Positions 2,716 through 40,193 of a DNA stretch of 64,000 nt are shown here, in pieces (within the stretch, counting starts at the first letter, position 1; every line of letters starts with the position of its first letter). A program made the translations under genes and the position numbers. Source of the DNA: a virus; the IMG/VR virus record IMGVR_UViG_3300044591_001861, positions 1 through 64,000 of that record, one strand, 5' to 3'. Under the pieces are notes generated by a model that was not told the DNA's origin, did no database searches, and saw only the letters and a list, made by a program, of their open reading frames with translations.

Positions 2716-3373
2716 GATTAATTATTGTTCCGTTTGGGTTGTAATCGTAAATAGGGTTATCGTTTTGGTCATATCCTTGACCGATAAAATCATACTGAAT
2801 TTTTTCTCTGGATTCTTTCATCCATTCAACTTCTTCAAATCCATGAATCAAAGAATCATTTTCTGCAATTGGCCAAATCTCTTGAGCAAGATAAATTTGG
2901 TCAGATGTATAAAAATGTTGTTTTGAATATTCAATCATAACATCTTGCTGAGATTCAGTCAGCATACCTTTCATTCCCCACATTCCAGCAAGGATAGGCC
3001 AATCATAATGTCTTTCATGATCTCTAATTATAGAAAATTTCTTATCAGATGTCAACCATTCATTAACTGCTCTCACTTCTCTTTCAGAAATACGAGAATC
3101 AGAATCTCTTGATATTGTTACATTATCTTCACTTTCAAACATAGAATAGAATCTCCAAAAAGCACCAAAGACTCCATCATCATCAACTTCAGCAACTTCA
3201 ACATTATCCATATCATGAAGTTGTTTTGCGTATTTGAAGGGAACGCTTCCATCAAGGAATATTCTACATTTCCAATCTGGCATTAGTTCTTTAGCAATTT
3301 CAGCATTTCTAATTGCGCCAATACAATATCTGGGACTAGATCCCCATACGCTGATTGATATGATTTTGTTCAT
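2708..3373 (-). CDS. Putative glycosyltransferase-like protein
   Basis: A 221-residue protein that begins like a GT-A sugar-transfer enzyme (IISISVWGSSPRYCIGAI) and carries the acidic motif ISRDSDSRISEREVRAV, which resembles the DxD nucleotide-sugar site, followed by FSIIRDH and ILAGMWGMKG. I recall similar proteins in phages and large viruses of algae, but no named family can be assigned with certainty. It overlaps the next upstream gene by 4 bases (ATGA), so translation is coupled. No membrane segment is visible. A role in glycan assembly is inferred from motif and context. Confidence 0.65.
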   Translation of the reverse strand: MNKIISISVWGSSPRYCIGAIRNAEIAKELMPDWKCRIFLDGSVPFKYAKQLHDMDNVEVAEVDDDGVFGAFWRFYSMFESEDNVTISRDSDSRISEREVRAVNEWLTSDKKFSIIRDHERHYDWPILAGMWGMKGMLTESQQDVMIEYSKQHFYTSDQIYLAQEIWPIAENDSLIHGFEEVEWMKESREKIQYDFIGQGYDQNDNPIYDYNPNGTIINHG

Positions 3374-12453: not shown

Positions 12454-12757
12454 TAATTCCTTTATCGTCTATGTAGATATCACCAGATGGTTTTCCAAGT
12501 ATGAGTTCATGGTATTTGCATCCCCATAAATTTAATTGCATTTTTGTGAGAGCATAAAATTTTTCTTTTGCTTTATCTCCATTATCATTATACCTTCCCA
12601 TACCGCGAGCAGTAAAGTATTTAATGATATGCCCATCATCATATAATTGATTGATCTTATCAATCCTATCTAAGTGGGGAGAACTCCCTTCATATTTGCA
12701 TGAACTACAATCCCCATTCTCACAGATTGTGCCGTCAATATCAATTACATATTGCAT
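12431..12757 (-). CDS. Small HAD-family capsule/LPS phosphatase
   Basis: A 108-residue HAD hydrolase. YVIDIDGTICENGD is motif I with the nucleophile Asp, YFTARGMGRYND motif II, GKPSGDIYIDDKGIN motif III/IV. The cap is minimal, as in phosphatases acting on sugar phosphates in capsule loci. The start is the ATG with AGGAGG six bases upstream; an ATG two codons earlier directly abuts that SD and is unlikely. Next to the HldE-like kinase it could fill the GmhB-like bisphosphate phosphatase step, but it is not clearly GmhB. Confidence 0.72.
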   Translation of the reverse strand: MQYVIDIDGTICENGDCSSCKYEGSSPHLDRIDKINQLYDDGHIIKYFTARGMGRYNDNGDKAKEKFYALTKMQLNLWGCKYHELILGKPSGDIYIDDKGINANDFFN

Positions 12758-13496
12758 GAACATCCTCCTGAGTTAAAACATAAGTTCCTTGATGTGCTAC
12801 TGCTATAGCAGCTGCTTTATTTGCTAAAGGAATTGATTCTTGAATTTTTTTTGTTTTTAAAAATCCATAAACAAGTGCGGAAAGAAAAGTATCCCCCGCA
12901 CCAACAACGTCATATACACTTACTTCTTGTCCTGGATATAAAATTCCATCATATTCAGCTCCCTTCCCACCCTTTGTGATAATTAAATTATCATAGTCAT
13001 TTTTATCTTTTAACTTCGAATACTCTACATCGTTAATTTTAATGTAGCAATTGTACTTAGGAAGAAGTTGTTTTTTACTATCAATAAAAACTGGACACTT
13101 TGATTGATATGCAATATCAAATAACATTTGGGAAGTTATGAATCCTTTATCATAATCAGAAATTACAATAGCATCATAAGAATCTTCTGGAATTTCGTAT
13201 TTCATTGGTTTTAAGTTGATCTCATTATCAACTCTCAATATCTGTTGATTTGACTTTTCATCAATATAACGAGTCTTTATTATCTTCTCTTCATTTGTTA
13301 GCATATAGACCTCTATACCAAAAGAACGAAGATTTTCTCTGACATTCCAAGCCATTCCTTGCTTAGTAACTGTCCTAGTATAGTTTAAGATTGGAACAGG
13401 TGCCTCTGGATTTAAACGATTGCAATTTCCATAGATGTAAACATCTGTACAACTATCACCTATTAGCAATACTTTTAATGATGTTTGTTGTTGCAT
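12741..13496 (-). CDS. PfkB-family sugar kinase, HldE N-terminal-domain-like
   Basis: A 251-residue PfkB kinase resembling the heptose-7-phosphate kinase half of HldE/RfaE: VLLIGDSCTDVYIYGN, RLNPEAPVPILNY (the NPEAPVP motif of HldE), YDAIVISDYDKG and the C-terminal ATP/anion-hole motif DVVGAGDTFLSALVYG. It is about 60 residues shorter than the usual domain; the stretch between the Gly-rich lid and strand 6 is reduced. It overlaps the separately encoded cytidylyltransferase half by 41 bases, so HldE is split with the second domain translated first. Likely phosphorylates a heptose- or hexose-phosphate. Confidence 0.82.
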   Translation of the reverse strand: MQQQTSLKVLLIGDSCTDVYIYGNCNRLNPEAPVPILNYTRTVTKQGMAWNVRENLRSFGIEVYMLTNEEKIIKTRYIDEKSNQQILRVDNEINLKPMKYEIPEDSYDAIVISDYDKGFITSQMLFDIAYQSKCPVFIDSKKQLLPKYNCYIKINDVEYSKLKDKNDYDNLIITKGGKGAEYDGILYPGQEVSVYDVVGAGDTFLSALVYGFLKTKKIQESIPLANKAAAIAVAHQGTYVLTQEDVHAICN

Positions 13497-13863
13497 AACC
13501 TTGAACTCTATTAAAAAACTTTAGATCTTTTGCATGTTGAGATCCAACAACTCTCTTATTTTCATAATCAGATCCAACTATCATTATATCAGGAGAAACA
13601 TTTTCTACCAATCTTTCAAGTTCATGCTCTGTATAAAATATTTTCACTTTGTCAACATATTTAATAGATGACAACATGTACATTCTGTCAGACTGATTAT
13701 TAATTGGACGAGAGCATCCTTTTAGTTCTTTAACTCTACTGTCAGAATCAATAGCAACAATCAAATAATCTCCAAGTGATTTAGCATACTTAAACATTTC
13801 TATATGACCGCGATGAAGAATATCAAAGCACCCATTAATAAAAACTACTTTACAATTTTCCAT
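13456..13863 (-). CDS. Cytidylyltransferase-like protein, HldE C-terminal-domain-like
   Basis: A 135-residue nucleotidyltransferase: VVFINGCFDILHRGHIEMF carries the HxGH-type motif, DSDSRVKELKGCSRPINNQSDR covers the nucleotide site, and IMIVGSDYENKRVVG the late signature. This equals the ADP/CDP-sugar-forming half of HldE. The kinase half follows in a different, overlapping frame. Together they would give nucleotide-activated heptose (ADP-glycero-manno-heptose in bacteria). The sugar is not proven here. Confidence 0.85.
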   Translation of the reverse strand: MENCKVVFINGCFDILHRGHIEMFKYAKSLGDYLIVAIDSDSRVKELKGCSRPINNQSDRMYMLSSIKYVDKVKIFYTEHELERLVENVSPDIMIVGSDYENKRVVGSQHAKDLKFFNRVQGYATTNIIKSIANR

Positions 13864-14501: not shown

Positions 14502-15202
14502 TTAAAATACTTAGAAATCTTTTCTCTATCACCTTTAATATAAGAAACAATCTCTTTAATATCTTGATCTAAAGAGTTCCACAATTCAAGCATTTCTTGT
14601 CCTGCTTTTTCTGAATTATAGTTTGTTCCCATTGGATGATCAATAGTGTGATTGTAATCACGAATAACAGGTCTGCCATTGGCAAAACAAATTGCGGCAA
14701 GAACTAAATCCCATCCCCAACCCATAGTATTATTTGAGAAATCAATCTTACGGTCTAACATCTCCTGAATGATCTCTTTGCGGATAAACCAAACAGTTTC
14801 ATCTGTAGATGCAACCATTCTGATATTTGGGTGATCGGATTCAAGACTACTAATGTCAGAGTTTTCTGCAGAGTACCAAGTATAGTCAATATTTGGCGCA
14901 TAGATCCCTGCATCATAATATTCAAGATACTCTTTAGCATCTTCAATTAATTTTTCCCAATTATCATAAGAAACGTCTCCTTGAATATGAAAAAGAATGT
15001 CTCCATCAAACAGTTCTAATGCTTTTCTAAACTGATCACTAAAATAACATTCGTCTCCAATATCAACCCAACCGTCTCTAGTATTATTATCATCACTATT
15101 AATAACAGTGACTTTTCCAAAGATTGGAGTTAATGCATCTTCAATTGCACATGTTTTTTCAAACTGGCGGTTCCAGTTAAAAATGAAAGGTTGAATATTC
15201 AT
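14498..15202 (-). CDS. Putative GT-A glycosyltransferase
   Basis: A 234-residue protein with a GT-A-like layout: an N-terminal FIFNWNRQFEKTCAIEDAL segment, FDGDILFHIQGDVSYDNW at the acidic site, GIYAPNIDYTWYS, and MGWGWDLVLAAICF, resembling the acceptor-site WGWD motif of family 2/7-type transferases. It overlaps its neighbours by 4 bases on both sides. Substrate unknown. Confidence 0.65.
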   Translation of the reverse strand: MNIQPFIFNWNRQFEKTCAIEDALTPIFGKVTVINSDDNNTRDGWVDIGDECYFSDQFRKALELFDGDILFHIQGDVSYDNWEKLIEDAKEYLEYYDAGIYAPNIDYTWYSAENSDISSLESDHPNIRMVASTDETVWFIRKEIIQEMLDRKIDFSNNTMGWGWDLVLAAICFANGRPVIRDYNHTIDHPMGTNYNSEKAGQEMLELWNSLDQDIKEIVSYIKGDREKISKYFK

Positions 15203-16251
15203 GAATTTTTCTCAGCAATTTTTTCTTCAATCCATGCATAGGTTTTTGCAATACCTTCTTCTAGGGTCATTGCATAGTCCCATCCAAGTTTCTCACGAAT
15301 AAGATCATTATTAGAATTACGTCCTCTAACACCTAAAGGTCCATCAATATGATTCTTTTTAACTTCCTTGTTAGCAACTTTAGCAGCAGTTTCCACAAGT
15401 TGATTGATAGTTACCATTTCTTCTGAACCAATATTTACTGGTCCAATGAAATCAGAATCCATCATTCTACGGGTCGCTTCGATGCATTCATCAATATACA
15501 GGAACGACCGAGTTTGTTTTCCATCACCCCACACATCAATAACTCCTCCCTCCTTTGGGAGGTAGGCGACTTTGCGGCAGATTGCGGCAGGTGCTTTTTC
15601 TCTTCCACCTTCCCAAGTTCCCTCTGGTCCAAAGATATTATGATACCTAGCAACCCGAACAGGAATCCCATAATTACGATGATAAGCGAAAAACAACCGC
15701 TCTGAGAACAGTTTCTCCCAACCATATTCAGAATCTGGTGCTGCTGGGTATGCGGATTCTTCACGGCAATCTGGGTTATCGGGATCAAGTTGATTATGTT
15801 CTGGATACATGCAAGCAGACCCAGAATAGAAGATCTTAGTCTTATTAACTTCCTTTAAGTCATTTAATATATGCTGTGCCTCAAGAACATTGAGATTGAT
15901 TGTAGCAGAGTTATGCATAATATCAGCATCATTCTCTCCAGTAAAAACAAATCCAGCACCACCCATATCAGCAGCAAACTGATAGATTTCGTCAAATGTA
16001 TCAGTATGCCTAAAAGGAACTGAATTGTAAAAATTTCTATATGGACCTTTATATTGGATAACTTTTTGAACAAAAGAAAGGTCTCTTAAGTCTCCTACAA
16101 TAAATTCGTCTGCTTCAGTTTCTGAAAACTCTGAATACTTTAAATCTACACCACGTACCCAATAACCTTCGGAGCGTAGTCTTTTAACCATGTGACTTCC
16201 AATAAATCCACCAGCACCAAGCACAAGTGCTGTCCTTTTATATTCAGACAT
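15199..16251 (-). CDS. GDP-mannose 3,5-epimerase-like NAD-dependent epimerase
   Basis: A 350-residue extended short-chain dehydrogenase: Rossmann GAGGFIGS (12-19), catalytic Ser in SGSACMYP (143-150), YGWEK (Tyr176/Lys180), RYHNIFGPEGTWEGGREKAP, WGDGKQTRSFLYIDEC and GPLGVRGRNSNNDLIREKLG. The GGREKAPAA and GVRGRNS blocks are hallmarks of GDP-mannose 3,5-epimerase, which makes GDP-L-galactose and GDP-L-gulose. It is the first gene of the glycan operon. A terminator and structured RNA precede it, suggesting regulated entry. GDP-mannose would have to come from the host or from other genes of the cluster. Confidence 0.88.
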   Translation of the reverse strand: MSEYKRTALVLGAGGFIGSHMVKRLRSEGYWVRGVDLKYSEFSETEADEFIVGDLRDLSFVQKVIQYKGPYRNFYNSVPFRHTDTFDEIYQFAADMGGAGFVFTGENDADIMHNSATINLNVLEAQHILNDLKEVNKTKIFYSGSACMYPEHNQLDPDNPDCREESAYPAAPDSEYGWEKLFSERLFFAYHRNYGIPVRVARYHNIFGPEGTWEGGREKAPAAICRKVAYLPKEGGVIDVWGDGKQTRSFLYIDECIEATRRMMDSDFIGPVNIGSEEMVTINQLVETAAKVANKEVKKNHIDGPLGVRGRNSNNDLIREKLGWDYAMTLEEGIAKTYAWIEEKIAEKNS

Positions 16252-16276: not shown

Positions 16277-16314
16277 ATTATACAAAAAAAGGTGGGTTTA
16301 TGCAACCCACCTTT
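16277..16314 (-). terminator. Strong terminator before the epimerase gene, followed by a TATAAT box
   Basis: On the minus strand AAGGTGGGTT / AACCCACCTT (16289-16313, loop GCATA) is followed by TTTTTTT. TATAAT (16277-16282) comes 1 base after the U-run and 17 bases after a TTGCAT in the loop. It may end transcription from upstream, serve as a riboswitch expression platform, or overlap a promoter for the glycan operon. Confidence 0.82.
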
Positions 16315-16470
16315 TGCAATTATTTCAGGCTCGCCACCAATTCTTTGGCTGGAAATTGGAAACCAGGCGGGAGAGAGTCCCATCCGCACCACTTGCTTTT
16401 TAATGGAAAAGCAAGAAACCAAAATGAGGGTCAAATTGACTCCACCACTTAGTTTTAAGAAACTAAGAAA
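16315..16470 (-). ncRNA. Candidate structured cis-regulatory RNA upstream of the glycan operon (possibly wcaG-type)
   Basis: The stretch between a small membrane gene and the terminator has no convincing gene but is dense in hairpins and locally GC-rich. On the minus strand: CTTAGTTT/AAACTAAG (16449-16468), GTCAA/TTGAC (about 16431-16441), CTTGCTTTT/AAAAGCAAG, GGGA/TCCC (loop CTCTC), CTGG/CCAG and CCAATT/AATTGG. The last two overlap and exclude each other. The wcaG RNA motif is known from cyanophages upstream of exopolysaccharide epimerase genes; the position here fits, but I have not matched its consensus. The short open frames on both strands here look accidental. Confidence 0.5.
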
Positions 16471-16682
16471 AGTTGGGATAACTTTGATATTTCGGAGATA
16501 CCAAAGAATGCACATAAGAATAATACATCCCAAAGTTTAAGTTTAATAGCAAAAGGAACTGTGAGTAACCCCCCAACAACTTTTATCATTAAACCATATT
16601 TAAATTCTCCCCATAACATAGTTTGATACCCTATCATAAGGAGAATATTTCCAATCCACCTAAGCAAATCGGTTTTAGACAT
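16455..16682 (-). CDS. Small membrane protein
   Basis: A 75-residue protein with two to three hydrophobic segments (about 8-24 IGNILLMIGYQTMLWG, 29-45 and 50-66) joined by short charged loops, with Lys/Arg near the N-terminus. I recognise the general type from cyanophage genomes but not a function. It lies downstream of two small hypothetical genes. The first hairpin of the candidate regulatory RNA overlaps its stop. Confidence 0.7.
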   Translation of the reverse strand: MSKTDLLRWIGNILLMIGYQTMLWGEFKYGLMIKVVGGLLTVPFAIKLKLWDVLFLCAFFGISEISKLSQLFLVS

Positions 16683-16730
16683 AAGGGGTTTTGCTCCCGA
16701 CCAGTGCTGTTAAAGTCCATCCGTGACTAT

Positions 16731-16970
16731 TTACTCATCATCATCCTTTACATAACAAGGAACACGATCTGGATCTAACCATTTCGCATATTCAATGTCT
16801 TCCATAGCAAGAGAACATTGCATTACATTATCAAAAAGATAAATGTCATTCCAGCGTTTTGTATATTCGTTTTGTTTTTGCATTCGATAATCGGGTTTAC
16901 CGTTTATCTCCAAAATACCTGCTTCTACAAAACGATATCCTTCACGTTCAAGAAGAACTTTGGTTTTCAT
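16731..16970 (-). CDS. Hypothetical protein, 79 residues
   Basis: A small charged protein (MKTKVLLEREGYRFVEAGIL at the N-terminus, acidic DDDE tail) with no membrane segment. ATGA overlap with the gene before it supports it as real and co-translated. Function not recognised. Confidence 0.65.
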   Translation of the reverse strand: MKTKVLLEREGYRFVEAGILEINGKPDYRMQKQNEYTKRWNDIYLFDNVMQCSLAMEDIEYAKWLDPDRVPCYVKDDDE

Positions 16971-17182
16971 GCAACCTCAACGGATTGAAGATCAGAAAGA
17001 ACATAGTCCATAAGCATTTCGTAATCATCAAGAGGATCACCAGAAAATACTACACCTTCATTCTCATAAAACCGACGAACTTTCTTATAGAGTTTTGGGT
17101 TTTTTACATCAAGATAAAAATCCCCATTTGCTGCGCCGCGGAGAGTCTGAACGTCTTTCTTGAATTTTGCTGTAAGAGTCAT
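16967..17182 (-). CDS. Hypothetical protein, 71 residues
   Basis: The start is the ATG at 17180-17182 (MTLTAKFKKDVQTLRG). A longer frame upstream runs into the promoter and the tRNA region and is rejected. The protein is soluble and mixed-charge. A sigma70 promoter (17205-17233) lies 23 bases upstream. Function not recognised. Confidence 0.65.
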   Translation of the reverse strand: MTLTAKFKKDVQTLRGAANGDFYLDVKNPKLYKKVRRFYENEGVVFSGDPLDDYEMLMDYVLSDLQSVEVA

Positions 17183-17204: not shown

Positions 17205-17233
17205 ATTATAAAAGTTTGACTTAAAGAAGTCAA
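17205..17233 (-). promoter_or_regulatory. Sigma70 promoter with an inverted repeat at the -35 box
   Basis: Minus strand: TTGACT (17228-17233), 17 bases, TATAAT (17205-17210). The -35 box is part of a perfect inverted repeat TTGACTT-CTTT-AAGTCAA, which ends before the -10 box. It drives the small genes at 16.4-17.2 kb. Confidence 0.75.
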
Positions 17234-17257
17234 GTAGGACAGTTTCACATCTGCCCA

Positions 17258-17330
17258 TGCTCCTTGCGTGGATCGAACACGCCTCAGGCGAATTATGAGT
17301 TCGCTGCATTCACCAGATTGCTAAAGGAGC
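17258..17330 (-). tRNA. tRNA-Met (anticodon CAT)
   Basis: Cloverleaf on the minus strand: acceptor GCTCCTT/AAGGAGC, anticodon stem GCGAA/TTCGC with loop CTCATAA, T-arm GCGTG-TTCGATC-CACGC. CAT may be Met or lysidine-modified Ile. No CCA is encoded. Confidence 0.88.
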
Positions 17331-17334
17331 AAGT

Positions 17335-17404
17335 AGGACTGCGGGGAATTGAACCCCGTTCACACCGTTATAAGCAGTGGGCCTTAACCAATAGGCGACA
17401 GTCC
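17335..17404 (-). tRNA. tRNA-Ile (anticodon TAT)
   Basis: Acceptor GGACTGT/GCAGTCC, anticodon stem CACTG/CGGTG with loop CTTATAA, T-arm CGGGG-TTCAATT-CCCCG. It reads AUA, a codon favoured by AT-rich phage genes and poorly served in many hosts. Confidence 0.85.
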
Positions 17405-17448
17405 CATGAAGACAGATCAATTATAGGGGACCTGAAACCCTATGACAA

Positions 17449-17652
17449 TTAAGAACCTTCTTCGTGATCGGTGTGAATACGTATTATATCATCGTCTAAA
17501 CCAGCACCTTTGAATATTTGTGACACTTCTTTATATGGCATCATAACTGCATTTCCATATTCACTAGTAATCATAAAAGATTCTCCGTTTTCTACTCTTT
17601 CCATTAGATTATCAAAATCTGATTGAAATTGTTCTACAGTAAATGATTTCAT
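17449..17652 (-). CDS. Phd/YefM-like antitoxin-fold protein
   Basis: A 67-residue protein: MKSFTVEQFQSDFDNLMERV, then VENGESFMITSEYGNAVMM and a C-terminal acidic tail. The order of helix, helix-turn and beta-hairpin (xNGExFxITxxGxxxxxxxP) is that of Phd/YefM antitoxins, DNA-binding repressors that neutralise Doc or YoeB/RelE toxins. No toxin gene lies next to it; both sides are tRNA genes. It could be an orphan antitoxin protecting against a host system, or a simple repressor. Confidence 0.72.
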   Translation of the reverse strand: MKSFTVEQFQSDFDNLMERVENGESFMITSEYGNAVMMPYKEVSQIFKGAGLDDDIIRIHTDHEEGS

Positions 17653-17685
17653 GATTAAATTAAAAAAATTGATATTAAATAAAAG

Positions 17686-17759
17686 TCGGAGTGATAGGAT
17701 TTGAACCTACGACCGCCCGCTCCCAAAGCGGATGCGCTACCAAACTGCGCTACACTCCG
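17686..17759 (-). tRNA. tRNA-Pro (anticodon TGG)
   Basis: Acceptor CGGAGTG/CACTCCG, anticodon stem TCCGC/GCGGG with loop TTTGGGA, T-arm CGTAG-GTTCAAATCC-TA region intact. Its 5' end overlaps the stop of the adjacent 92-codon gene by 10 bases. Confidence 0.92.
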
Positions 17760-18028
17760 TTACTAGAATTTTTAATTATAAGTTCTGGGGAATTTGCATT
17801 TGCTTCCTCAAGCAAAAATTTTTTAACATCATCAAACTTAAAATAAGTTTTTATGATGTCTTTAAACTCTACGTACCAAACAACATCATCATCAGAAGCA
17901 TCTTCCATTTCAGAAGGTGAATCTTTATGCTTAGGAACTGCCTCAATTACCATATGTGTATCAATACCGTGCTTTTCTTCAGCGGCAAGAATAACTTCCA
18001 TGATTGGCAGATCTGCTAGACGAGTCAT
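17750..18028 (-). CDS. Hypothetical acidic protein, 92 residues
   Basis: An acidic soluble protein (MTRLADLPIMEVILAAEEKH, then EMEDASDDDVVWYVEFKD). It has its own promoter 24 bases upstream, and its last codons overlap the 5' end of tRNA-Pro, an economical arrangement. No known family recognised. Confidence 0.62.
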   Translation of the reverse strand: MTRLADLPIMEVILAAEEKHGIDTHMVIEAVPKHKDSPSEMEDASDDDVVWYVEFKDIIKTYFKFDDVKKFLLEEANANSPELIIKNSSNGV

Positions 18029-18051
18029 TTGTTTGCTTTTGGAACTTAATT

Positions 18052-18092
18052 ATTATAAGAGGGGTTCTTGAAAAAGTCAACCCCCCCCCTCT
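18052..18092 (-). promoter_or_regulatory. Nested terminator and sigma70 promoter
   Basis: Minus strand: TTGACT (18075-18080), 17 bases, TATAAT (18052-18057). The same bases form a hairpin: AAGAGGGG with a run of G on one side and AACCCCTCTT on the other, with TTGACTTTTTCAA in the loop. It both follows the gnd stop and starts the next gene. The poly-C run (9 C on the plus strand) is notable. Confidence 0.7.
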
Positions 18093-18115
18093 TATGTGAT
18101 GTTATATTTATTAAC

Positions 18116-19138
18116 CTATCTAACGTGGTGTCCACCAAACATATAACGCATTCCGTTCAAGATTTTTGCTCCGAACGATCCGAGATTGCGTGAGTTAAAT
18201 CTTTCAAATAGTGCAGTAGTAATAACAGGAGCGGGAACCCCCAAGTCCACAGCGGCAGAAACAGTCCAACGACCCTCACCGCTGTCGGATACGCCTCCAG
18301 AGAACTGTTTAAGGCTACCATCCCTGCGTAGCACATCAGCAGTAAGATCGAGTAACCAAGACCCAACCACGCTACCACGACGCCATAGCTCAGCAACCTC
18401 AGCAACGTCAATGTCATAGCAATAGGATTCTGGATCTGCCATCGGGGCAACTTCTGCGTCACCTTCTCTAACATATTGGGCACCTGCGTTAGCATTCTTT
18501 AAAATATTGAAACCTTCGGCATATGCTTGCATAATACCATACTCAATACCATTATGCACCATCTTTACAAAGTGTCCTGCACCTGGACCGCCACAATGTA
18601 ACCAACCATATTCGGCAGAAGTCACATCAGATGTTGGATCCGTTCTATGGCAGGAGTGAATATCTGGGGAGAGGGCGGAGAATATCTTTGAACAAGTGGT
18701 GACTGCAGTATTTCCACCTCCAACCATAAGACAGTATCCACGATCCAAACCATAAACACCACCGCTAGTGCCACAATCAATATATTGGATACCCATTTTT
18801 GCCAGACGTTCTGCTCTCTTCCGACTGTCTTTAAAATTGCTATTGCCATGATCAATAATAATATCTCCTTCACTACAATATCGTAGTAACTCATTGATTG
18901 TCTCCTCTACTGTTTCGGCAGGCACAACCATTTGAAAAATGCCTGGTTGGTCATTTGTTTTAACTGCTTTAACAAGATTTTCAATTGTATCTTCTACACC
19001 AGAAACATATCCTTTTTCAAATGCTTCTTTTGCTTTTTCATAATTTCTACGATAACCCCAGACTTCAATACCTGATTTCATCATACGACGGGACATTCCT
19101 TCTCCCATGCGACCCAATCCAATTAATCCAACTTTCAT
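18116..19138 (-). CDS. gnd: 6-phosphogluconate dehydrogenase, decarboxylating (short form)
   Basis: A 340-residue enzyme of the oxidative pentose phosphate pathway that converts 6-phosphogluconate to ribulose-5-phosphate, CO2 and NADPH. Evidence: VGLIGLGRMGEGMSRRM (NADP loop), VVPAETVEETI, DHGNSNFKDS, CGTSGGVYGLDRGYCLMVGG (substrate site) and HFVKMVHNGIEYGIMQAYAE (catalytic Lys). Cyanophages are known to carry gnd as an auxiliary gene to raise NADPH and ribose for nucleotide synthesis at night or under Calvin-cycle block. It shares a unit with small hypothetical genes upstream. Confidence 0.95.
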   Translation of the reverse strand: MKVGLIGLGRMGEGMSRRMMKSGIEVWGYRRNYEKAKEAFEKGYVSGVEDTIENLVKAVKTNDQPGIFQMVVPAETVEETINELLRYCSEGDIIIDHGNSNFKDSRKRAERLAKMGIQYIDCGTSGGVYGLDRGYCLMVGGGNTAVTTCSKIFSALSPDIHSCHRTDPTSDVTSAEYGWLHCGGPGAGHFVKMVHNGIEYGIMQAYAEGFNILKNANAGAQYVREGDAEVAPMADPESYCYDIDVAEVAELWRRGSVVGSWLLDLTADVLRRDGSLKQFSGGVSDSGEGRWTVSAAVDLGVPAPVITTALFERFNSRNLGSFGAKILNGMRYMFGGHHVR

Positions 19139-19345
19139 TTAATACTCCCAAGATTCGTACTGTTGTCTAAAATAAACATCCACTTTATTCAAACTATCAA
19201 GATGAATATCGCATTTATAATTATGTTCATCACACCACTCTAATGCAAATGCATGAAATCTTTCTTCACTTTTGACTTTGTTTACTCCATAAATTCTAGC
19301 AAAAGAAGACATTACAAAATGCCAACATTGATGCTCTGGTTTCAT
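19139..19345 (-). CDS. Hypothetical protein, 68 residues
   Basis: A small soluble protein rich in His and aromatic residues (MKPEHQCWHFVMSSFARIYG). Its start overlaps the preceding mini-gene as ATGA and its stop abuts gnd, so it is co-translated. Function not recognised. Confidence 0.62.
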   Translation of the reverse strand: MKPEHQCWHFVMSSFARIYGVNKVKSEERFHAFALEWCDEHNYKCDIHLDSLNKVDVYFRQQYESWEY

Positions 19346-19431
19346 TGCGAATAAGCATGGTTAAGTCCCCATACTATAAAATATCCAATAAGACCAAAAA
19401 TGGTTACACTTGATAAGATTAGTTTAATCAT
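19342..19431 (-). CDS. Single-pass membrane mini-protein, 29 residues
   Basis: An ATG-initiated frame of 29 codons (MIKLILSSVTIFGLIGYFIV at the N-terminus), almost entirely one transmembrane helix. It overlaps the gene before by 8 bases and the gene after as ATGA, and GAGGAGG (SD-like) precedes its start. The tight coupling is the main reason to accept it. Confidence 0.55.
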   Translation of the reverse strand: MIKLILSSVTIFGLIGYFIVWGLNHAYSQ

Positions 19432-19540
19432 CCTCCTCGTCCTCGTAAGTTGATGGTTCCTCGAATAGTTCTTCCATTTTTTGTTGCAGAACCCTTTCTT
19501 GCAATCCTTTTAAATCTTCTTCTGTAAATCTAAACACCAT
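19424..19540 (-). CDS. Hypothetical acidic mini-protein, 38 residues
   Basis: Starts MVFRFTEEDLKGLQERVLQQ and ends in a run of Asp/Glu (EDEEDD). A helical, very acidic protein. Its final GAGGACGAGGAGGATG also supplies the ribosome site of the next mini-gene. Function not recognised. Confidence 0.5.
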   Translation of the reverse strand: MVFRFTEEDLKGLQERVLQQKMEELFEEPSTYEDEEDD

Positions 19541-19541
19541 A

Positions 19542-19748
19542 CTAATTTAGAGTAACATTAAGCCATGGAAATATTGGAGGAATTACTCCAATAAGTCTAA
19601 GAAGACCTTCAGCGAAAAGTGCAAGAACAACCCAACCAACACACATTGAAATAATCGCAGCATTACGATTGTGTTTGCGTATTGCATCATCAATCATCTC
19701 TTTGCATTCTTCCTGAGTGATTAGTCTTTCTGGGTTCGATTTGTTCAT
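19542..19748 (-). CDS. Small membrane protein, 68 residues
   Basis: ATG at 19746-19748 (MNKSNPERLITQEECKEM); earlier ATGs in frame exist at 19760 and upstream, so the start is uncertain. A hydrophobic segment AAIISMCVGWVVLALFAEG (about residues 27-47) and a second weak one follow a charged helix. About 59 bases overlap, in another frame, with the 57-codon gene upstream. Confidence 0.55.
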   Translation of the reverse strand: MNKSNPERLITQEECKEMIDDAIRKHNRNAAIISMCVGWVVLALFAEGLLRLIGVIPPIFPWLNVTLN

Positions 19749-19863
19749 TTGGCAATTCATGAATTTTGGCGATACCAATAACGGGAAGCATAACAAGGGA
19801 AAATCCAAGAATTCCCAAACACACTTGATTATTTAATATTTCAACTACCAATTTAGCGATCAT
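19690..19863 (-). CDS. Small membrane protein, 57 residues
   Basis: ATG at 19861-19863 with AGGAGA 8-9 bases upstream. MIAKLVVEILNNQVCLGIL leads into a membrane segment (about 15-34), then a charged tail. Its end overlaps the start of the next gene in a different frame. Accepted because of the good ribosome site. Function unknown. Confidence 0.55.
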   Translation of the reverse strand: MIAKLVVEILNNQVCLGILGFSLVMLPVIGIAKIHELPNEQIEPRKTNHSGRMQRDD

Positions 19864-19880
19864 TATGATGATCTCCTGAC

Positions 19881-20147
19881 TTAATCTTCTGTGGTGAATT
19901 TATTTTCTAAACTATAAAGTCTTTTTTCCCAAGTATCTCCACCTTCTCTTCCTTTGCAAGGATTAATACAGGTAGAATCTCCATGTTTATTGCAAACAAG
20001 ACCTGCAAGATCTAATTCAGATCCATCCTTACTAACTCCTGTTCCTGTCCAAACGTGCTTACCATTTAACCAAACGGCGCCGCACTTTGGACATTCTTTT
20101 CTCTGTAAGGAGAGATCAGAAAGTTCTCTATCGGAATTTGATTGCAT
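19881..20147 (-). CDS. Zinc-ribbon-like hypothetical protein
   Basis: An 88-residue protein with two Cys pairs or clusters: KECPKCGAVW near residue 18 and GLVCNKHGDSTCINPCKG near 49-66, suggesting a zinc-binding fold. AGAGGT lies 5 bases before the ATG. No enzymatic motif visible. Confidence 0.65.
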   Translation of the reverse strand: MQSNSDRELSDLSLQRKECPKCGAVWLNGKHVWTGTGVSKDGSELDLAGLVCNKHGDSTCINPCKGREGGDTWEKRLYSLENKFTTED

Positions 20148-20266
20148 GAGATACCTCTATTTAAACTTTTGCATTTACGCCCAGTATATCTCATCTTCCA
20201 CCAAATATATATTATCAATAACAAATCTCAATATTAGATTGTTATGAGACGATAACATTTTTAAAA

Positions 20267-20350
20267 CGGAAAGGGTGGGATTCGAACCCACGGTGCTCAT
20301 CACACGGCAGTTTTCAAGACTGCTGCCTTAAACCACTCGGCCACCTTTCC
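20267..20350 (-). tRNA. tRNA-Ser (anticodon TGA)
   Basis: Class II tRNA: acceptor GGAAAGG/CCTTTCC, anticodon stem GCAGT/ACTGC with loop CTTGAAA, long variable arm, T-arm GTGGG-TTCGAAT-CCCAC, discriminator G as in Ser tRNAs. Confidence 0.95.
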
Positions 20351-20368
20351 AATATTGGAGGTTGTTTA

Positions 20369-20614
20369 TTAACGAACCTCAAAGTCTAGTTTACGGACTT
20401 TACGTTGTCTTCTTGCCTCTTGCCAGGCAATATCTTGAGAAGTAAGAACATTTCTTTGTTCTTTCTGTGTAGAGTTTACCATAATTACTCTACTTAAGTC
20501 AAGAGCTGAAACACTATCACCCTTTACAGTCATCATATTGTGACAACCACAAACCTGAATTTTATTCGTACTGGTCAACTCTTTGTTACAATCTTTACAT
20601 CTTACTATAATCAT
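20369..20614 (-). CDS. Zinc-finger-like hypothetical protein
   Basis: An 81-residue protein with MIIVRCKDCNKELTSTNKIQ and VCGCHN, i.e. a CxxC ... CxC/H metal-site pattern near the N-terminus, and a basic C-terminal region (QEARRQRKVRKL). Small proteins of this kind occur in cyanophages. Possibly nucleic-acid binding. Confidence 0.62.
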   Translation of the reverse strand: MIIVRCKDCNKELTSTNKIQVCGCHNMMTVKGDSVSALDLSRVIMVNSTQKEQRNVLTSQDIAWQEARRQRKVRKLDFEVR

Positions 20615-20629
20615 GATTCATAAATCCTA

Positions 20630-21064
20630 TCATTGTGTAAACGATCTTAACATCCAAATAAATTTACCGTGCGCTTCATTTAAATCATCAACAAGGTTTA
20701 TAGTTCCTTTTGATTTATTTGACTCTGCTTCATCTGATACTTGAGTCAAAAGTTCTACAATTTTCTGATGACCTTCTAATAGATCACGAATCATTCCCAT
20801 AGTATCTAGCCCACTATTTGTCTCAGTAATATGAGAAACTTCAGTAATTCTAGAAAGAGTTGGAACTGGTTTTACATTCAAAAATCTCATATGTTCAGTG
20901 ATTCGATCTACCTCATCAAACATTGCTTCATATTGTTCGCCAAACAAATCATGAAATTGTTTGAAATCTTCTCCAACTACATTCCAATGATATACCCAAG
21001 TCTTTTGAAAAAGTACAAAAAGACTTGCTTGAGTGTCGGAAAGTAATTTATATAGTGTTTCCAT
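20630..21064 (-). CDS. Dps-like ferritin-fold protein
   Basis: A 144-residue protein of the Dps family. WVYHWNVVGEDFKQFHDLFG and EQYEAMFDEVDRITEHMR contain the His and the Asp/Glu residues of the Dps ferroxidase site between subunits. The last helix HGKFIWMLRSF fits the conserved end. Dps dodecamers oxidise iron, consume peroxide and coat DNA. In a phage of photosynthetic cells it may protect replicating DNA from light-driven oxidative damage or store iron released from photosystems. A late-promoter-like TATAAATA lies 16 bases before the ATG. Confidence 0.82.
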   Translation of the reverse strand: METLYKLLSDTQASLFVLFQKTWVYHWNVVGEDFKQFHDLFGEQYEAMFDEVDRITEHMRFLNVKPVPTLSRITEVSHITETNSGLDTMGMIRDLLEGHQKIVELLTQVSDEAESNKSKGTINLVDDLNEAHGKFIWMLRSFTQ

Positions 21065-21079
21065 TATACTTTTTTCAAG

Positions 21080-21087
21080 TATTTATA
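21080..21087 (-). promoter_or_regulatory. Late-promoter-like TATAAATA before dps
   Basis: A perfect TATAAATA octamer on the minus strand, 16 bases upstream of the Dps start and just 5 bases from the 3' end of tRNA-Val. This is the T4 late promoter sequence read by gp55. Confidence 0.5.
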
Positions 21088-21091
21088 CAAG

Positions 21092-21163
21092 TGGGCGATA
21101 CTGGATTCGAACCAGTGACCATCTCCGTGTAAAGGAGGCACTCTACCGCTGAGTTAATCGCCC
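21092..21163 (-). tRNA. tRNA-Val (anticodon TAC)
   Basis: Acceptor GGGCGAT/ATCGCCC, anticodon loop TTTACAC, T-arm ACTGG-TTCGAAT-CCAGT, discriminator A. Confidence 0.93.
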
Positions 21164-21166
21164 ATG

Positions 21167-21240
21167 CCCTCTGTCTAGGAATCGAACCCAGTTTCCATGT
21201 GTGTTATCCACCCGTCCTTACCAATAGACTACCAGAGGGA
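21167..21240 (-). tRNA. tRNA-like element with abnormal anticodon arm (possible pseudo-tRNA)
   Basis: The ends look like a tRNA: acceptor CCCTCTG/CAGAGGG, D-arm GTC...GAC with TTGGTAA, T-arm CTGGG-TTCGATT-CCTAG. But the middle, GGGTGGATAACACACAT, gives only a GTG/CAC stem and no loop with U at position 33. One extra base also sits at each inner end of the acceptor. No anticodon can be assigned with confidence. It is either degenerate or unusually folded. Confidence 0.55.
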
Positions 21241-21424
21241 AAGGTGATGAGTGGCCATCACCAGCAGAAGACACTTTCTGCGAGAGAAAACACCAAACCT
21301 TATTTTTCCTGTTCTCAGGAAGGCACCCAGATCAATGGGGTGGGAGACCTTGCAAGGGTTTATACCTCCAAAGTTTGTCCAGCATTTTCAATTTGAAAGA
21401 ACCAGACATTTCTAGTCCTTCCAA
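21241..21424 (-). other. Structured spacer between tRNA genes
   Basis: About 180 bases without a gene. On the minus strand they contain hairpins CCTGAGAACAGG, GCAGAA-AGTGTC-TTCTGC and GGTGAT...ATCACC in series. Nothing here matches a tRNA. It could be processed spacer or a small RNA. Confidence 0.4.
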
Positions 21425-21496
21425 CTCCACAACCTGGATTCGAACCAGGGACCAAGTGATTAACAGTCACCGACTCTACCGCTGAGCTATTGTGGA
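21425..21496 (-). tRNA. tRNA-Asn (anticodon GTT)
   Basis: Acceptor TCCACAA/TTGTGGA, anticodon stem GGTGA/TCACT with loop CTGTTAA, T-arm CCTGG-TTCGAAT-CCAGG, discriminator G. Confidence 0.95.
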
Positions 21497-21504
21497 ATGT
21501 TATA

Positions 21505-21708
21505 CTACTTAGAACTTACAAAATCATTAATCGTTTCTGCTTGCTTAAGAACATCCCGTAGAGTTGGAAACTCTGGATAATCCATCTTCACAGTATTTGA
21601 AGAATTTGCATTCCAATAACGAGCAGTATCCGTTTCAATACTGAACTGATCATTTAGCATATTATATGCTTGCTTGAATATTTCAAAACGAAGTTCGTAA
21701 GGTGACAT
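21505..21708 (-). CDS. Hypothetical protein, 67 residues
   Basis: A small helical soluble protein (MSPYELRFEIFKQAYNMLND), placed between tRNA-Gly and tRNA-Asn. I recall similar short proteins in cyanophage tRNA regions. Function not recognised. Confidence 0.65.
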   Translation of the reverse strand: MSPYELRFEIFKQAYNMLNDQFSIETDTARYWNANSSNTVKMDYPEFPTLRDVLKQAETINDFVSSK

Positions 21709-21753
21709 TTATTTACTCCTGTGTGTTTGTGTGTATGGAGATTAGTCTCCAAG

Positions 21754-21825
21754 AGCGGAATAGGGGATTCGAACCCCTGACGTTCAGCTTGGAAGGCTGA
21801 CATTCTACCGCTGAATTAATTCCGC
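21754..21825 (-). tRNA. tRNA-Gly (anticodon TCC)
   Basis: Acceptor GCGGAAT/ATTCCGC, anticodon stem TCAGC/GCTGA with loop CTTCCAA, T-arm AGGGG-TTCGAAT-CCCCT. Confidence 0.95.
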
Positions 21826-21910
21826 ATAGTCCTCTTGATTTGTGCTTCTATGAGAGGCATAAGAGGAGTAGGACTTACATGAAGTTTGGACCTTCACTGC
21901 CAATGATAAT

Positions 21911-21939
21911 ATTGTAACCTATGATTGATCCCTTGTCAA
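21911..21939 (-). promoter_or_regulatory. Sigma70 promoter upstream of tRNA-Gly
   Basis: Minus strand: TTGACA (21934-21939), 17 bases, TACAAT (21911-21916). It overlaps the stop of the HNH gene and would drive the lower tRNA group. Confidence 0.7.
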
Positions 21940-22415
21940 GCCCCTTCACCAAATATAAATTCTTTCCATTCATGAACTCTACTTTTTTCAAGATCTAACA
22001 TTACGCGACTAAAAGGTGCTTTTGGTTCACACTTTAGTTTCATATTAGTATCTTTTAAAGACTTATTGCCCTTTTTAACATTACATGTCATACAACATGC
22101 AACTAAGTTATCCCAGGTATCCTTTCCGCCTTTTGATCTTGGAATCACATGGTCTATTGTAAGATCATTTTTTGTTCCACAATACTGACATTCATGATCA
22201 TCTCTTTTATATATCAAGGCACGAGATGGATAAGTTTCCTTTTCGTTCATGAAAGGAAGTTTTACATAATTTACTAATTTAATTATTCTTTTTGAAATAA
22301 TTTTTGCCTTTTCTTTAAAACAAAGAACTACGGCTCTTTTCCAATTTGTAAAGTGAAGAGGTTCATATGAACTATTGAGAACCAATATTGTTGAATAAGG
22401 TTCTATGTATTCCAT
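21936..22415 (-). CDS. HNH endonuclease
   Basis: A 159-residue free-standing HNH nuclease with zinc-binding Cys pairs: CQYCGTKNDLTIDHVIPRSK (DH is the metal/catalytic pair) and NLVACCMTCNVKKGNKS. The N-terminal part (TILVLNSSYEPLHFTNWKRA) matches the cyanobacterial and phage HNH type. The start is the ATG at 22413-22415, six bases after AGGTG; a GTG three codons earlier is less likely. It sits among tRNA genes, a common target region for mobile homing nucleases. Confidence 0.88.
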   Translation of the reverse strand: MEYIEPYSTILVLNSSYEPLHFTNWKRAVVLCFKEKAKIISKRIIKLVNYVKLPFMNEKETYPSRALIYKRDDHECQYCGTKNDLTIDHVIPRSKGGKDTWDNLVACCMTCNVKKGNKSLKDTNMKLKCEPKAPFSRVMLDLEKSRVHEWKEFIFGEGA

Positions 22416-22455
22416 ACTAAACACCTATACATTTGTTATTTAGATTTTAATTATA

Positions 22456-22527
22456 CACCCTGAGGAGGATTTGAACCACCGTCTTATTCGTTCGTAGCGA
22501 AGCACTCTTCCACTGAGTTATCAGGGC
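22456..22527 (-). tRNA. tRNA-Arg (anticodon ACG)
   Basis: Acceptor GCCCTGA/TCAGGGT, anticodon stem CTTCG/CGAAT with loop CTACGAA, T-loop TTCAAAT. A34 is normal for bacterial Arg-ACG, which is edited to inosine. Confidence 0.88.
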
Positions 22528-22532
22528 GTAGG

Positions 22533-22604
22533 CGAAGGATGAGGGACTTGAACCCCCACTAGCGGTTTTGGAGACCACCGTGCTACCAATTACACCAATC
22601 CAAC
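22533..22604 (-). tRNA. tRNA-Trp (anticodon CCA)
   Basis: Anticodon stem GTGGT/ACCGC with loop CTCCAAA, D-arm GTG/CAC, T-arm GGGGG-TTCAAGT-CCCTC. The acceptor GTTGGAT/ATCCTTC has two T-T mismatches at positions 2 and 3, so aminoacylation may be impaired. Confidence 0.78.
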
Positions 22605-22608
22605 ATAG

Positions 22609-22682
22609 TATCCATGAGAGGACTCGAACCTCCAACAAATAAATCCTTAGTCTATTGCCTCTTCCAATTGGGCTACATGGAT
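22609..22682 (-). tRNA. tRNA with apparent anticodon AAG (Leu-type codon, class I body)
   Basis: Acceptor ATCCATG/CATGGAT, D-arm GCC/GGC, anticodon stem ATAGA/TTTAT with loop CTAAGGA, T-arm GGAGG-TTCGAGT-CCTCT, variable loop TTGTT. The anticodon AAG would read CUU (Leu), but Leu tRNAs have a long variable arm and this one is only 5 bases. Identity is uncertain. Confidence 0.65.
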
Positions 22683-22685
22683 ATA

Positions 22686-22756
22686 CTGGGTGACTAGGAC
22701 TCGAACCTAGATAAACGCCTTCAAAGGGCGGTGTCCTACCATTAGACGATCTCCCA
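22686..22756 (-). tRNA. tRNA-Gln (anticodon TTG)
   Basis: Acceptor TGGGAGA/TCACCCA with one A-A mismatch, anticodon loop CTTTGAA, T-arm CTAGG-TTCGAGT-CCTAG, discriminator G. Confidence 0.92.
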
Positions 22757-22828
22757 AGCCCTCAATTGGATTTGAACCAACGACCTACTCATTACTAGTG
22801 AGTTGCTCTACCACTGAGCTATAAGGGC
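22757..22828 (-). tRNA. tRNA-Thr (anticodon AGT)
   Basis: Acceptor GCCCTTA/TGAGGGC, anticodon stem ACTCA/TGAGT with loop CTAGTAA, T-arm GTTGG-TTCAAAT-CCAAT. A34 is unusual for bacterial Thr tRNA. Confidence 0.88.
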
Positions 22829-22830
22829 GG

Positions 22831-22901
22831 GGTGCCGTATGGGAATTGAACCCATCTAGTCGGTTCCACAAACCGATGCCTTACCACTAGGCTAACGACA
22901 C
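22831..22901 (-). tRNA. tRNA-His (anticodon GTG)
   Basis: Acceptor GTGTCGT/ACGGCAC, anticodon stem TCGGT/ACCGA with loop TTGTGGA, T-arm ATGGG-TTCAATT-CCCAT. Confidence 0.93.
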
Positions 22902-22902
22902 A

Positions 22903-22974
22903 AGGCAGTGGGTAGAATTGAACTACCGACATAGAGGGTATGAATCTCTTGTTCTACCACTGAACTACACTGCC
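22903..22974 (-). tRNA. tRNA-Met (anticodon CAT), second copy
   Basis: Acceptor GGCAGTG/CACTGCC, anticodon stem AGAGA/CCTCT with loop TTCATAC, T-arm GGTAG-TTCAATT-CTACC. Distinct from the CAT tRNA at 17.3 kb, so one of the two may be lysidine-Ile. Confidence 0.9.
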
Positions 22975-22977
22975 AAA

Positions 22978-23064
22978 CGGAAGATGTTGGATTCGAACCA
23001 ACGGAAGGATTACTCCTTCGACGGTTTAGCAAACCGTTGCTTTAGACCTCTCAGCCAATCTTCC
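22978..23064 (-). tRNA. tRNA-Ser (anticodon GCT)
   Basis: Class II: acceptor GGAAGAT/ATCTTCC, anticodon stem ACGGT/ACCGT with loop TTGCTAA, long variable arm, T-arm GTTGG-TTCGAAT-CCAAC, discriminator G. Confidence 0.95.
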
Positions 23065-23068
23065 AAGG

Positions 23069-23140
23069 TGGAACCGACAAGATTTGAACTTGTGACCGCT
23101 CGGTTATCAGCCGAGTGCTCTACCGCTGAGCTACGGTTCC
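23069..23140 (-). tRNA. tRNA-Ile (anticodon GAT)
   Basis: Acceptor GGAACCG/CGGTTCC, anticodon stem CTCGG/CCGAG with loop CTGATAA, T-arm ACAAG-TTCAAAT-CTTGT, discriminator A. Confidence 0.95.
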
Positions 23141-23145
23141 AAAGT

Positions 23146-23215
23146 ATTCCTAACGGGATTCGAACCCGTGCTGCCACCTTGAAAGGGTGGTGACCTAACC
23201 GCTAGTCGATAGGAA
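23146..23215 (-). tRNA. tRNA-Glu (anticodon TTC)
   Basis: Acceptor TTCCTAT/TTAGGAA, anticodon stem CCACC/GGTGG with loop CTTTCAA, T-arm ACGGG-TTCGAAT-CCCGT. Confidence 0.92.
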
Positions 23216-23217
23216 CT

Positions 23218-23264
23218 TGATGCTACAACCGCCAAGGAGGAACACTCCACAGGCAGCGTAGCAA
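23218..23264 (-). other. Hairpin spacer between tRNA-Asp and tRNA-Glu
   Basis: An imperfect inverted repeat closes with TGCTAC/GTAGCA and contains GGC/GCC. No tRNA arms remain. Possibly a processing signal or remnant. Confidence 0.4.
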
Positions 23265-23336
23265 CGACCCTAACGAGATTTGAACTCGTGATACCACCGT
23301 GACAGGGTGGCGTGATAACCGCTTCACTATAGGGTC
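23265..23336 (-). tRNA. tRNA-Asp (anticodon GTC)
   Basis: Acceptor GACCCTA/TAGGGTC, anticodon stem CCACC/GGTGG with loop CTGTCAC, T-arm ACGAG-TTCAAAT-CTCGT, discriminator G. Confidence 0.95.
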
Positions 23337-23340
23337 AAGG

Positions 23341-23422
23341 TGGGAGGAACAGGATTTGAACCTGTGAAGGCAGAGCCGTCTGATTTACAGTCAGATTCCT
23401 TTAACCACTCGGAAATCCTCCC
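23341..23422 (-). tRNA. tRNA-Tyr (anticodon GTA)
   Basis: Class II: acceptor GGGAGGA/TCCTCCC, anticodon stem TCTGA/TCAGA with loop CTGTAAA, long variable arm, T-arm ACAGG-TTCAAAT-CCTGT, discriminator A. Confidence 0.95.
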
Positions 23423-23426
23423 ACGA

Positions 23427-23499
23427 TGGGTCTGGTCGGACTCGAACCGACGACTTACAGGTTAAAAGCCCGCTACTCTACCAACTGAGTTACAGACCC
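23427..23499 (-). tRNA. tRNA-Lys (anticodon TTT)
   Basis: Acceptor GGGTCTG/CAGACCC, anticodon stem GCGGG/CCTGT with loop CTTTTAA, T-arm GTCGG-TTCGAGT-CCGAC. Confidence 0.93.
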
Positions 23500-23621
23500 A
23501 AATAATATAGGATAAATATTCAGTTGTCTAGGTTCTGGTCTCTTGACCACTTGATTACAATACCACCGTTTGATCTCTGGGGGGGAGGTTGGTGGACGCT
23601 TAGGAAACTGTCACAGACAAC
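23500..23621. other. Intergenic stretch with no recognised feature
   Basis: About 120 bases between tRNA-Lys and the terminator. On the minus strand a TATATTAT could be part of a promoter for the tRNA group, but no good -35 is placed. A purine-rich GGGGGGGAGG run lies near 23580. Confidence 0.4.
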
Positions 23622-23656
23622 AAAAAAGGGGAGAGAAACTAAAAGTTTCCTCCCCT
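23622..23656 (-). terminator. Strong terminator inside the tRNA array
   Basis: Minus strand: AGGGGAGGAAACT / AGTTTCTCTCCCCT stem with a short T loop, followed by TTTTTTGTTG. It ends the 190-base unit starting at the late promoter at 23803. Confidence 0.88.
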
Positions 23657-23682
23657 GTCTTTTTGCTTTTATGGATTACATC

Positions 23683-23781
23683 TTACATATGTTTTTCCAT
23701 ATTCGCAAACAGGGGAGTGCCCTCAATATGCCAATAGCGGCAATCAAGAGTACTAATCTGTTTGTTCATTTGGAAAGACAT
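23683..23781 (-). CDS. Possible mini-gene of 32 residues
   Basis: ATG frame MSFQMNKQISTLDCRYWHIE and 12 more residues. No clear SD. It is exactly enclosed by TATAAATA (23803-23810) and the terminator at 23622-23656, so this unit is transcribed for either this peptide or a short RNA. Confidence 0.4.
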   Translation of the reverse strand: MSFQMNKQISTLDCRYWHIEGTPLFANMEKHM

Positions 23782-23802
23782 TGTTTTCGACCTAAGTATG
23801 TT

Positions 23803-23810
23803 TATTTATA
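23803..23810 (-). promoter_or_regulatory. Late-promoter-like TATAAATA inside the tRNA array
   Basis: A perfect TATAAATA octamer on the minus strand, 22 bases upstream of the mini-gene ATG. Confidence 0.5.
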
Positions 23811-23832
23811 AGACTTTTCAATAAAAAGTCAA

Positions 23833-23906
23833 CGACTCAAGTAGGACTCGAACCTACGACCGACTGCTTAGAAGGCAGTTGCTCTATCCATCTGAGCTAT
23901 TGAGTC
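23833..23906 (-). tRNA. tRNA-Arg (anticodon TCT)
   Basis: Acceptor GACTCAA/TTGAGTC, anticodon stem ACTGC/GCAGT with loop CTTCTAA, T-arm GTAGG-TTCGAGT-CCTAC. Confidence 0.95.
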
Positions 23907-23914
23907 ATGAGACA

Positions 23915-23943
23915 ATTTTATCCGATATGAATTCAATTGTCAA
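23915..23943 (-). promoter_or_regulatory. Sigma70 promoter upstream of tRNA-Arg(TCT), with inverted repeat
   Basis: Minus strand: TTGACA (23938-23943), 17 bases, TAAAAT (23915-23920). GACAATT at the -35 and AATTGTC at the -10 are perfect inverted copies enclosing the spacer. Confidence 0.7.
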
Positions 23944-23945
23944 GT

Positions 23946-24026
23946 AGGACGAGAGGGACTTGAACCCTCACAGGCAATGCCCGACAGATTTTAAGTCTGG
24001 TGTGTCTACCAATTCCACCACCGTCC
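23946..24026 (-). tRNA. tRNA-Leu (anticodon TAA)
   Basis: Class II: acceptor GGACGGT/CTCGTCC, anticodon stem CAGA/TCTG with loop CTTAAAA, variable arm CGGGCATTGCCTG, T-arm GAGGG-TTCAAGT-CCCTC. Confidence 0.93.
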
Positions 24027-24053
24027 CGCAAAATATACCTCTTAGAGAGGTAA

Positions 24054-24146
24054 TAGGAGTGGAGGGACTCGAACCCCCAACCGCACGGTAATCTGCCGTA
24101 TACGGAAGGTATAAGCTTCCCGCTCTGCCAATTGAGCTACACTCCC
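24054..24146 (-). tRNA. tRNA with anticodon TAT and an abnormally long variable region
   Basis: Acceptor GGGAGTG/CACTCCT, class I D-arm (GCTCAATTGGCAGAGC), anticodon stem GGAAG/CTTCC with loop CTTATAC, T-arm GGGGG-TTCGAGT-CCCTC. Between anticodon and T-arms lie 25 bases with an internal hairpin ACGG-CAGATTA-CCGT. Ile tRNAs normally have 5 bases here. The anticodon TAT reads AUA; identity uncertain. Confidence 0.8.
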
Positions 24147-40086: not shown

Positions 40087-40120
40087 AAAACTAAAAGGTT
40101 ACGCTTTTAGATATTTAGAA

Positions 40121-40193
40121 TGGAGAATAGGAGACTCGAACTCCTGACACCCGCCTTGCAAAGGCGATGCTCTACCAACTGAGCTAATTCCCC
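40121..40193 (-). tRNA. tRNA-Ala (anticodon TGC)
   Basis: Acceptor GGGGAAT/ATTCTCC, anticodon stem TCGCC/GGCGG with loop TTTGCAA, T-arm AGGAG-TTCGAGT-CTCCT, discriminator A. It is separate from the main array and has its own promoter 63 bases upstream. Confidence 0.95.

Follow-up and report, generated by a model that had tools for sequence, protein, structure and literature searches.

A wcaG RNA ahead of a viral glycan operon as a candidate 3'-end element of the preceding early transcript

Results

Genes and features at the locus

We analyzed a 64,000-nucleotide stretch of viral DNA (positions 1 to 64,000 of IMG/VR record IMGVR_UViG_3300044591_001861), referred to here as the window. The locus under study is read from the minus strand. 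At its upstream end, a candidate promoter of the upstream transcript (TTGACT and TATAAT separated by 17 nt, 11/12; positions 17205 to 17233) precedes a gp205-type gene at 16967 to 17182 (phrog_552; 80% identity to the T4-GC249 protein of S-SM2) and a gp206-type gene at 16731 to 16970 (phrog_481; 64% identity to the T4-GC250 protein of S-SM2). These are followed by a 75-aa open reading frame (ORF) of unknown function at 16455 to 16682 (phrog_2318; E = 4e-19), which ends inside an array of small RNA structures. The array leads into an intrinsic terminator (16287 to 16315), a promoter that overlaps it (16277 to 16305), and a gene for a nucleotide-sugar epimerase at 15199 to 16251 (Pfam PF01370, E = 6.8e-37; phrog_540). 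The first-pass annotation had named an epimerase as the first glycan gene, and these assignments agree with it. Further along the glycan operon, a heptose kinase/adenylyltransferase-like function is apparently split over two overlapping genes (12741 to 13863).

The window also carries a cluster of 24 tRNA genes (17257 to 24146) and one more tRNA gene at 40120 to 40194. Several of these tRNAs carry an A34 anticodon, which is unusual (Leu AAG, Val AAC, and Thr AGT); the Val one scored barely above the cut-off.

Identification and fold of the wcaG RNA

From the letters of the window, a structured RNA with six possible hairpins had been described in front of the terminator and the epimerase gene, and the wcaG motif had been proposed. 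All of these parts were found on the minus strand. An Rfam covariance-model search identified positions 16323 to 16423 as a wcaG RNA (RF01761) with a score of 100.7 bits against a cut-off of 42 (E = 3.7e-18 over the window), and the match covers the full model length (1 to 98). The proposed interval did contain the structured RNA; its end at 16277 coincides with the final base of a TATAAT box, and the interval therefore took in a promoter that had not been named. The hairpins resolve into six helices, of which wcaG contributes P1, P2, and P3, an extra unit upstream of it (16424 to 16476) contributes two, and the terminator is the sixth. Weak Rfam matches to STnc390, L20_leader, and frnS were under the cut-off and were dismissed as terminator-like.

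The wcaG fold comprises P1 (16415-16407/16400-16392), P2 (about 16387 to 16367), P3 (16359-16354/16342-16337), a pseudoknot between CUGG (16366 to 16363) and CCAG (16352 to 16349), and a 3' box, GUGGCGAGCCUG (16337 to 16326). Comparison with 37 diverse relatives established the covariation that the first-pass annotation had suggested looking for. In P2, P3, and the pseudoknot, 96.5% of cells were paired. The covariation score was 0.428, compared to 0.181 for shuffled alignments; none of the 500 shuffles scored as high, and slid versions scored far lower. The pseudoknot pairs 58:73 and 59:72 showed 16 and 11 two-sided changes, respectively, and the CUGG:CCAG pairing is replaced in relatives by CCUG:CAGG, CAGG:CCUG, CGAG:CUCG, or CUAG:CUAG. 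Two of the hairpins had been described as mutually exclusive. The pairings concerned, CUGG:CCAG and CCAAUU:AAUUGG, are the crossing stems of an H-type pseudoknot and can coexist.

The 194-nt stretch as a whole folded at -60.5 kcal/mol, compared to -45.9 kcal/mol for dinucleotide shuffles (z = -3.5), and it was more stable than 200/200 of them. The energy of the wcaG part folded alone was not significant against shuffles (z = -1.0), and the case for wcaG therefore rests on family membership and covariation. By score and by structure, the sequence is a genuine copy of wcaG and belongs to RF01761. A pattern scan of bacterial genomes (257 Gb) gave a number of matches close to the chance expectation, and those listed came from unrelated phyla and included no cyanobacterium.

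Additional hairpin units upstream of wcaG

The extra unit at 16424 to 16476 lies outside the Rfam model and consists, in order, of a hairpin (CUUAG...CUAAG), the sequence UGGUGGA, and a second hairpin (GUCA...UGAC). The first loop holds the stop codon of the 75-aa ORF. Of 118 loci, 91 carry a single such unit or a pair of them ahead of wcaG, and the stem was conserved above the level of shuffled arms in related loci. A related intercistronic unit, AGUCACGGAUGGACU...CUGGUCGGGA...CCCC, occupies positions 16683 to 16730, directly after the stop codon of the gp206-type gene. Units like it recur in other loci; its nested fold alone was not significant.

Tandem RNA-like units were also seen in front of wcaG more widely. 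They take the form of a hairpin plus UGGUGGAGUCA...GACC and of AGUC..GACU plus CUGGUCGGGA...CGACCCC, both in the window and, for example, at loci L122, L131, and L138. The unit behind the gp206-type gene of the window is one that stands alone. No Rfam family reached the cut-off on these extra units in the window and ten isolate regions.

A terminator that overlaps a promoter

The terminator, AAAAGGTGGGTT-GCATA-AACCCACCTTTT followed by TTT, forms a 12-pair stem (16315 to 16287) that folded alone at -17.7 kcal/mol (z = -4.3), and the earlier description of it as strong was borne out. The promoter shares part of this sequence. Its -35 element, TTGCAT (16305 to 16300), lies in the terminator loop and at the edge of the stem, and after a 17-nt spacer its -10 element, TATAAT (16282 to 16277), directly follows the T run. 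Transcription of the glycan operon would thus start near position 16270, which leaves about 19 nt to the ATG.

The same arrangement was found in relatives. A terminator was present at this place in 81/99 related loci, 62 of them with a perfect TATAAT and 71 with 17-nt spacing; the usual -35 element is TTGCAT, TTGACA, or TTTACA. A TATAAT box lay 4 to 9 nt past the stem at 65/89 wcaG-linked terminators, compared to 11/67 for strong terminators elsewhere in these sequences. We compared 71 distinct regions upstream of epimerase genes: the promoter was found in 38/38 with wcaG and in 28/33 without it, compared to 4% in control sequence. Since the promoter is kept at epimerase genes that do not have wcaG, it goes with the epimerase gene. 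Sigma-70-like motifs have been reported upstream of early genes of S-PM2 and Syn9, and cyanomyoviruses are believed to express their early genes from host sigma-70 promoters (PMC2984593).

At three loci (L307, L315, and L334), epimerase genes carry the composite or a remnant of it with no wcaG directly upstream. Judged from these sequences, wcaG and the composite are separable. Because terminator and promoter form one composite, the epimerase transcript should begin past the terminator and not contain wcaG. Transcripts that start only downstream of the terminator are what the sequence predicts.

Genes on either side of wcaG

Each of the 24 isolate cyanophages carried exactly one wcaG above the cut-off. 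To one side of it the genes were conserved. The gp205/gp206/75-aa block lay upstream in 23/24 isolates and in 80/84 loci, counts that come from related loci and thus from non-independent events; part of this synteny may reflect shared ancestry. Taken singly, the gp206-type gene was upstream in 70/84 loci and a homologue of the 75-aa ORF in 36/84. In 24 of the 27 loci with no extra unit intervening, wcaG started within 8 nt of the upstream stop codon. This proximity has to be read with the compactness of phage genomes in mind, in which intergenic elements are always near stop codons; to that extent, the compactness weakens the case for a 3'-end role.

On the other side the genes vary. The epimerase gene adjoins wcaG in the window and in 47/84 loci, but in only 6/24 isolates. 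A tRNA gene came next (within 200 nt) in 10/24 isolates and a sugar operon in 6/24; genes following wcaG in isolates further included hli genes, genes for 2OG-Fe(II) oxygenases, and unknown genes. In the environmental set most of the genes after wcaG were glycan related, which represents a real association. A single upstream family is joined to at least 10 different downstream families, and the reverse also holds.

We also counted from the genes. Close relatives of the gp206-type gene of the window had wcaG downstream in 46/46 cases, yet two divergent sets had it in 37/66 and 18/40, and we rejected a strict linkage. Relatives of the epimerase gene had wcaG directly upstream in 45/80 cases by our own count. 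Because divergent gp206 relatives partly do not have wcaG, its upstream link, although stronger than the downstream one in these sequences, is not strict. The strand orientation of the neighbors was uninformative, as nearly all lie on the same strand on both sides. At a few loci (L012, L034, and L035), neither a terminator nor a promoter separates wcaG from the ORF that directly follows it, and wcaG may act in a leader there.

Several annotation details were recorded at the isolate loci. In S-PM2 (AJ630128; locus L122), ARAGORN and Rfam both placed a tRNA-Gly gene just past wcaG (3165 to 3236), which is missing from the annotation of the record. Annotated hypothetical-protein ORFs cross wcaG in syn9 (gp208; L123, 2927 to 3085), S-SM2 (L125, 2949 to 3143), and S-RSM4 (L138, 2166 to 2279) and are probably not real genes. 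S-CREM1 (L126, 3468 to 3682) carries a manA RNA (RF01745), another orphan motif labeled as cis-regulatory, between tRNA-Leu and tRNA-Asn genes, with no protein gene behind it.

Evaluation of a switch in front of the glycan operon

Weinberg et al. (2010) proposed a 5' regulatory role for wcaG and marked its riboswitch status "y" (probably) (PMC2864571), and the later genome papers examined repeat the riboswitch proposal without a test. No selective ligand was found in the papers examined. In line with this usual annotation, wcaG would sit in the 5' leader of the glycan operon and, as a riboswitch or attenuator, decide on passage through the terminator, and the first-pass annotation had likewise suggested transcriptional control of the operon by an aptamer plus terminator. 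The conserved aptamer-like fold with its pseudoknot, a terminator at a median of 11 nt downstream, the frequency with which glycan genes follow, and the original proposal all speak for such a role.

The pairing results did not. An anti-terminator, in which wcaG pairs alternatively with the terminator, was considered and rejected, as the own terminator held no advantage over swapped ones in pairing (-12.0 versus -11.8 kcal/mol; permutation P = 0.07), in a test whose power is limited by the G richness of most terminator arms. Compared to unrelated terminators with equal numbers of G-C pairs, the own terminator was better by only about 1 kcal/mol. Moreover, the glycan operon has its own promoter, which overlaps and follows the terminator and is kept where wcaG is missing; a tRNA gene comes next in 10/24 isolates; and no promoter enrichment was seen within 300 nt upstream of wcaG. 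The sequence data thus disfavor a transcriptional switch for the glycan operon, and we regard a riboswitch or attenuator in its 5' leader as unlikely.

Discussion

The sequence comparisons suggest that wcaG is probably a 3'-end RNA of the upstream early transcript and that the terminator behind it doubles as the promoter of the next operon. The upstream transcript would start near position 17205 and carry the gp205-type, gp206-type, and 75-aa genes. We infer that upstream transcripts end at the wcaG array and terminator, so that the message would close with a stack of small hairpins and the pseudoknot (the extra unit plus wcaG), followed by the terminator. The latter would serve as a host-sigma-70-type promoter of the glycan operon, whose epimerase message, beginning about 19 nt before the ATG, would have no wcaG in it. 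RNase P makes 3' ends ahead of tRNA genes as a matter of established tRNA biology, and before such genes it would be expected to make the end of the message instead. Least certain is the role of the fold, which may protect or process the 3' end of the message, unless wcaG is released as a small RNA.

Alternatively, wcaG could be a processive antiterminator that acts on the passing RNA polymerase, like HK022 put or Bacillus EAR, so that at some point during infection upstream transcription enters the genes beyond. A structured RNA just before a terminator at exopolysaccharide operons recalls EAR, and the tRNA genes that follow elsewhere would profit from readthrough too. However, put and EAR act early in the transcript on terminators farther downstream, whereas wcaG would lie at the transcript end; the next operon has its own promoter; and Rfam reports no sequence likeness to EAR (epsC). 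We give antitermination little credence.

The joining of one upstream family to at least 10 downstream families, and the reverse, could also mean that the conserved block serves mostly as a module boundary at the DNA level, where cassettes are swapped by homologous recombination, as has been proposed for the PeSL elements of T4-type phages. The composite of terminator and promoter is as in PeSLs, going by their citation in PMC4503421. The compensatory changes in P3 and the pseudoknot show selection for RNA pairing, for which a recombination site has no need, and a mainly DNA-level role appears highly improbable.

For the family as a whole, we advance more tentatively that wcaG may have been read from the wrong side. 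It could be a 3'-end RNA, present once per genome, of the gp205-gp207 early block that T4-like cyanophages conserve, made of tandem hairpin and pseudoknot units that Rfam covers only in part. It could act on the upstream message or, once released, as an RNA of its own, with the sugar genes as incidental neighbors. Since 2010, wcaG has been carried among the candidate riboswitches of exopolysaccharide or high-light genes; if it is instead part of the upstream transcript, looking for ligands on the basis of the sugar genes would be misdirected. At this locus, a terminator and the early promoter of the next operon would be packed into one short sequence where gene cassettes vary.

Compared to the published wcaG motif (RF01761; PMC2864571), the window copy is alike in sequence, in P1, P2, P3, and the pseudoknot, in the cyanophage host range, and in the exopolysaccharide gene downstream. 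It differs in its extra upstream unit outside the model and in its probable context, the 3' end of an upstream transcript rather than a 5' leader. The PeSL (promoter early-stem-loop) elements of T4-type phages (Arbiol 2010 and Comeau 2014, as cited in PMC4503421) resemble positions 16277 to 16315, and the same stretch generally in relatives, as far as that paper describes them: a terminator stem-loop and an early sigma-70 promoter stand at the boundary of variable gene modules. Unlike PeSLs so described, the window has a structured RNA in front and the -35 element inside the terminator loop. For one S-PM2 region, the same paper doubted that PeSLs drive the shuffling. EAR (epsC) and HK022 put are likewise structured RNAs that lie close to a terminator, and EAR, too, is found at exopolysaccharide operons; unlike them, wcaG has no sequence match to these RNAs, would lie at the transcript end, and is followed by a separate promoter.
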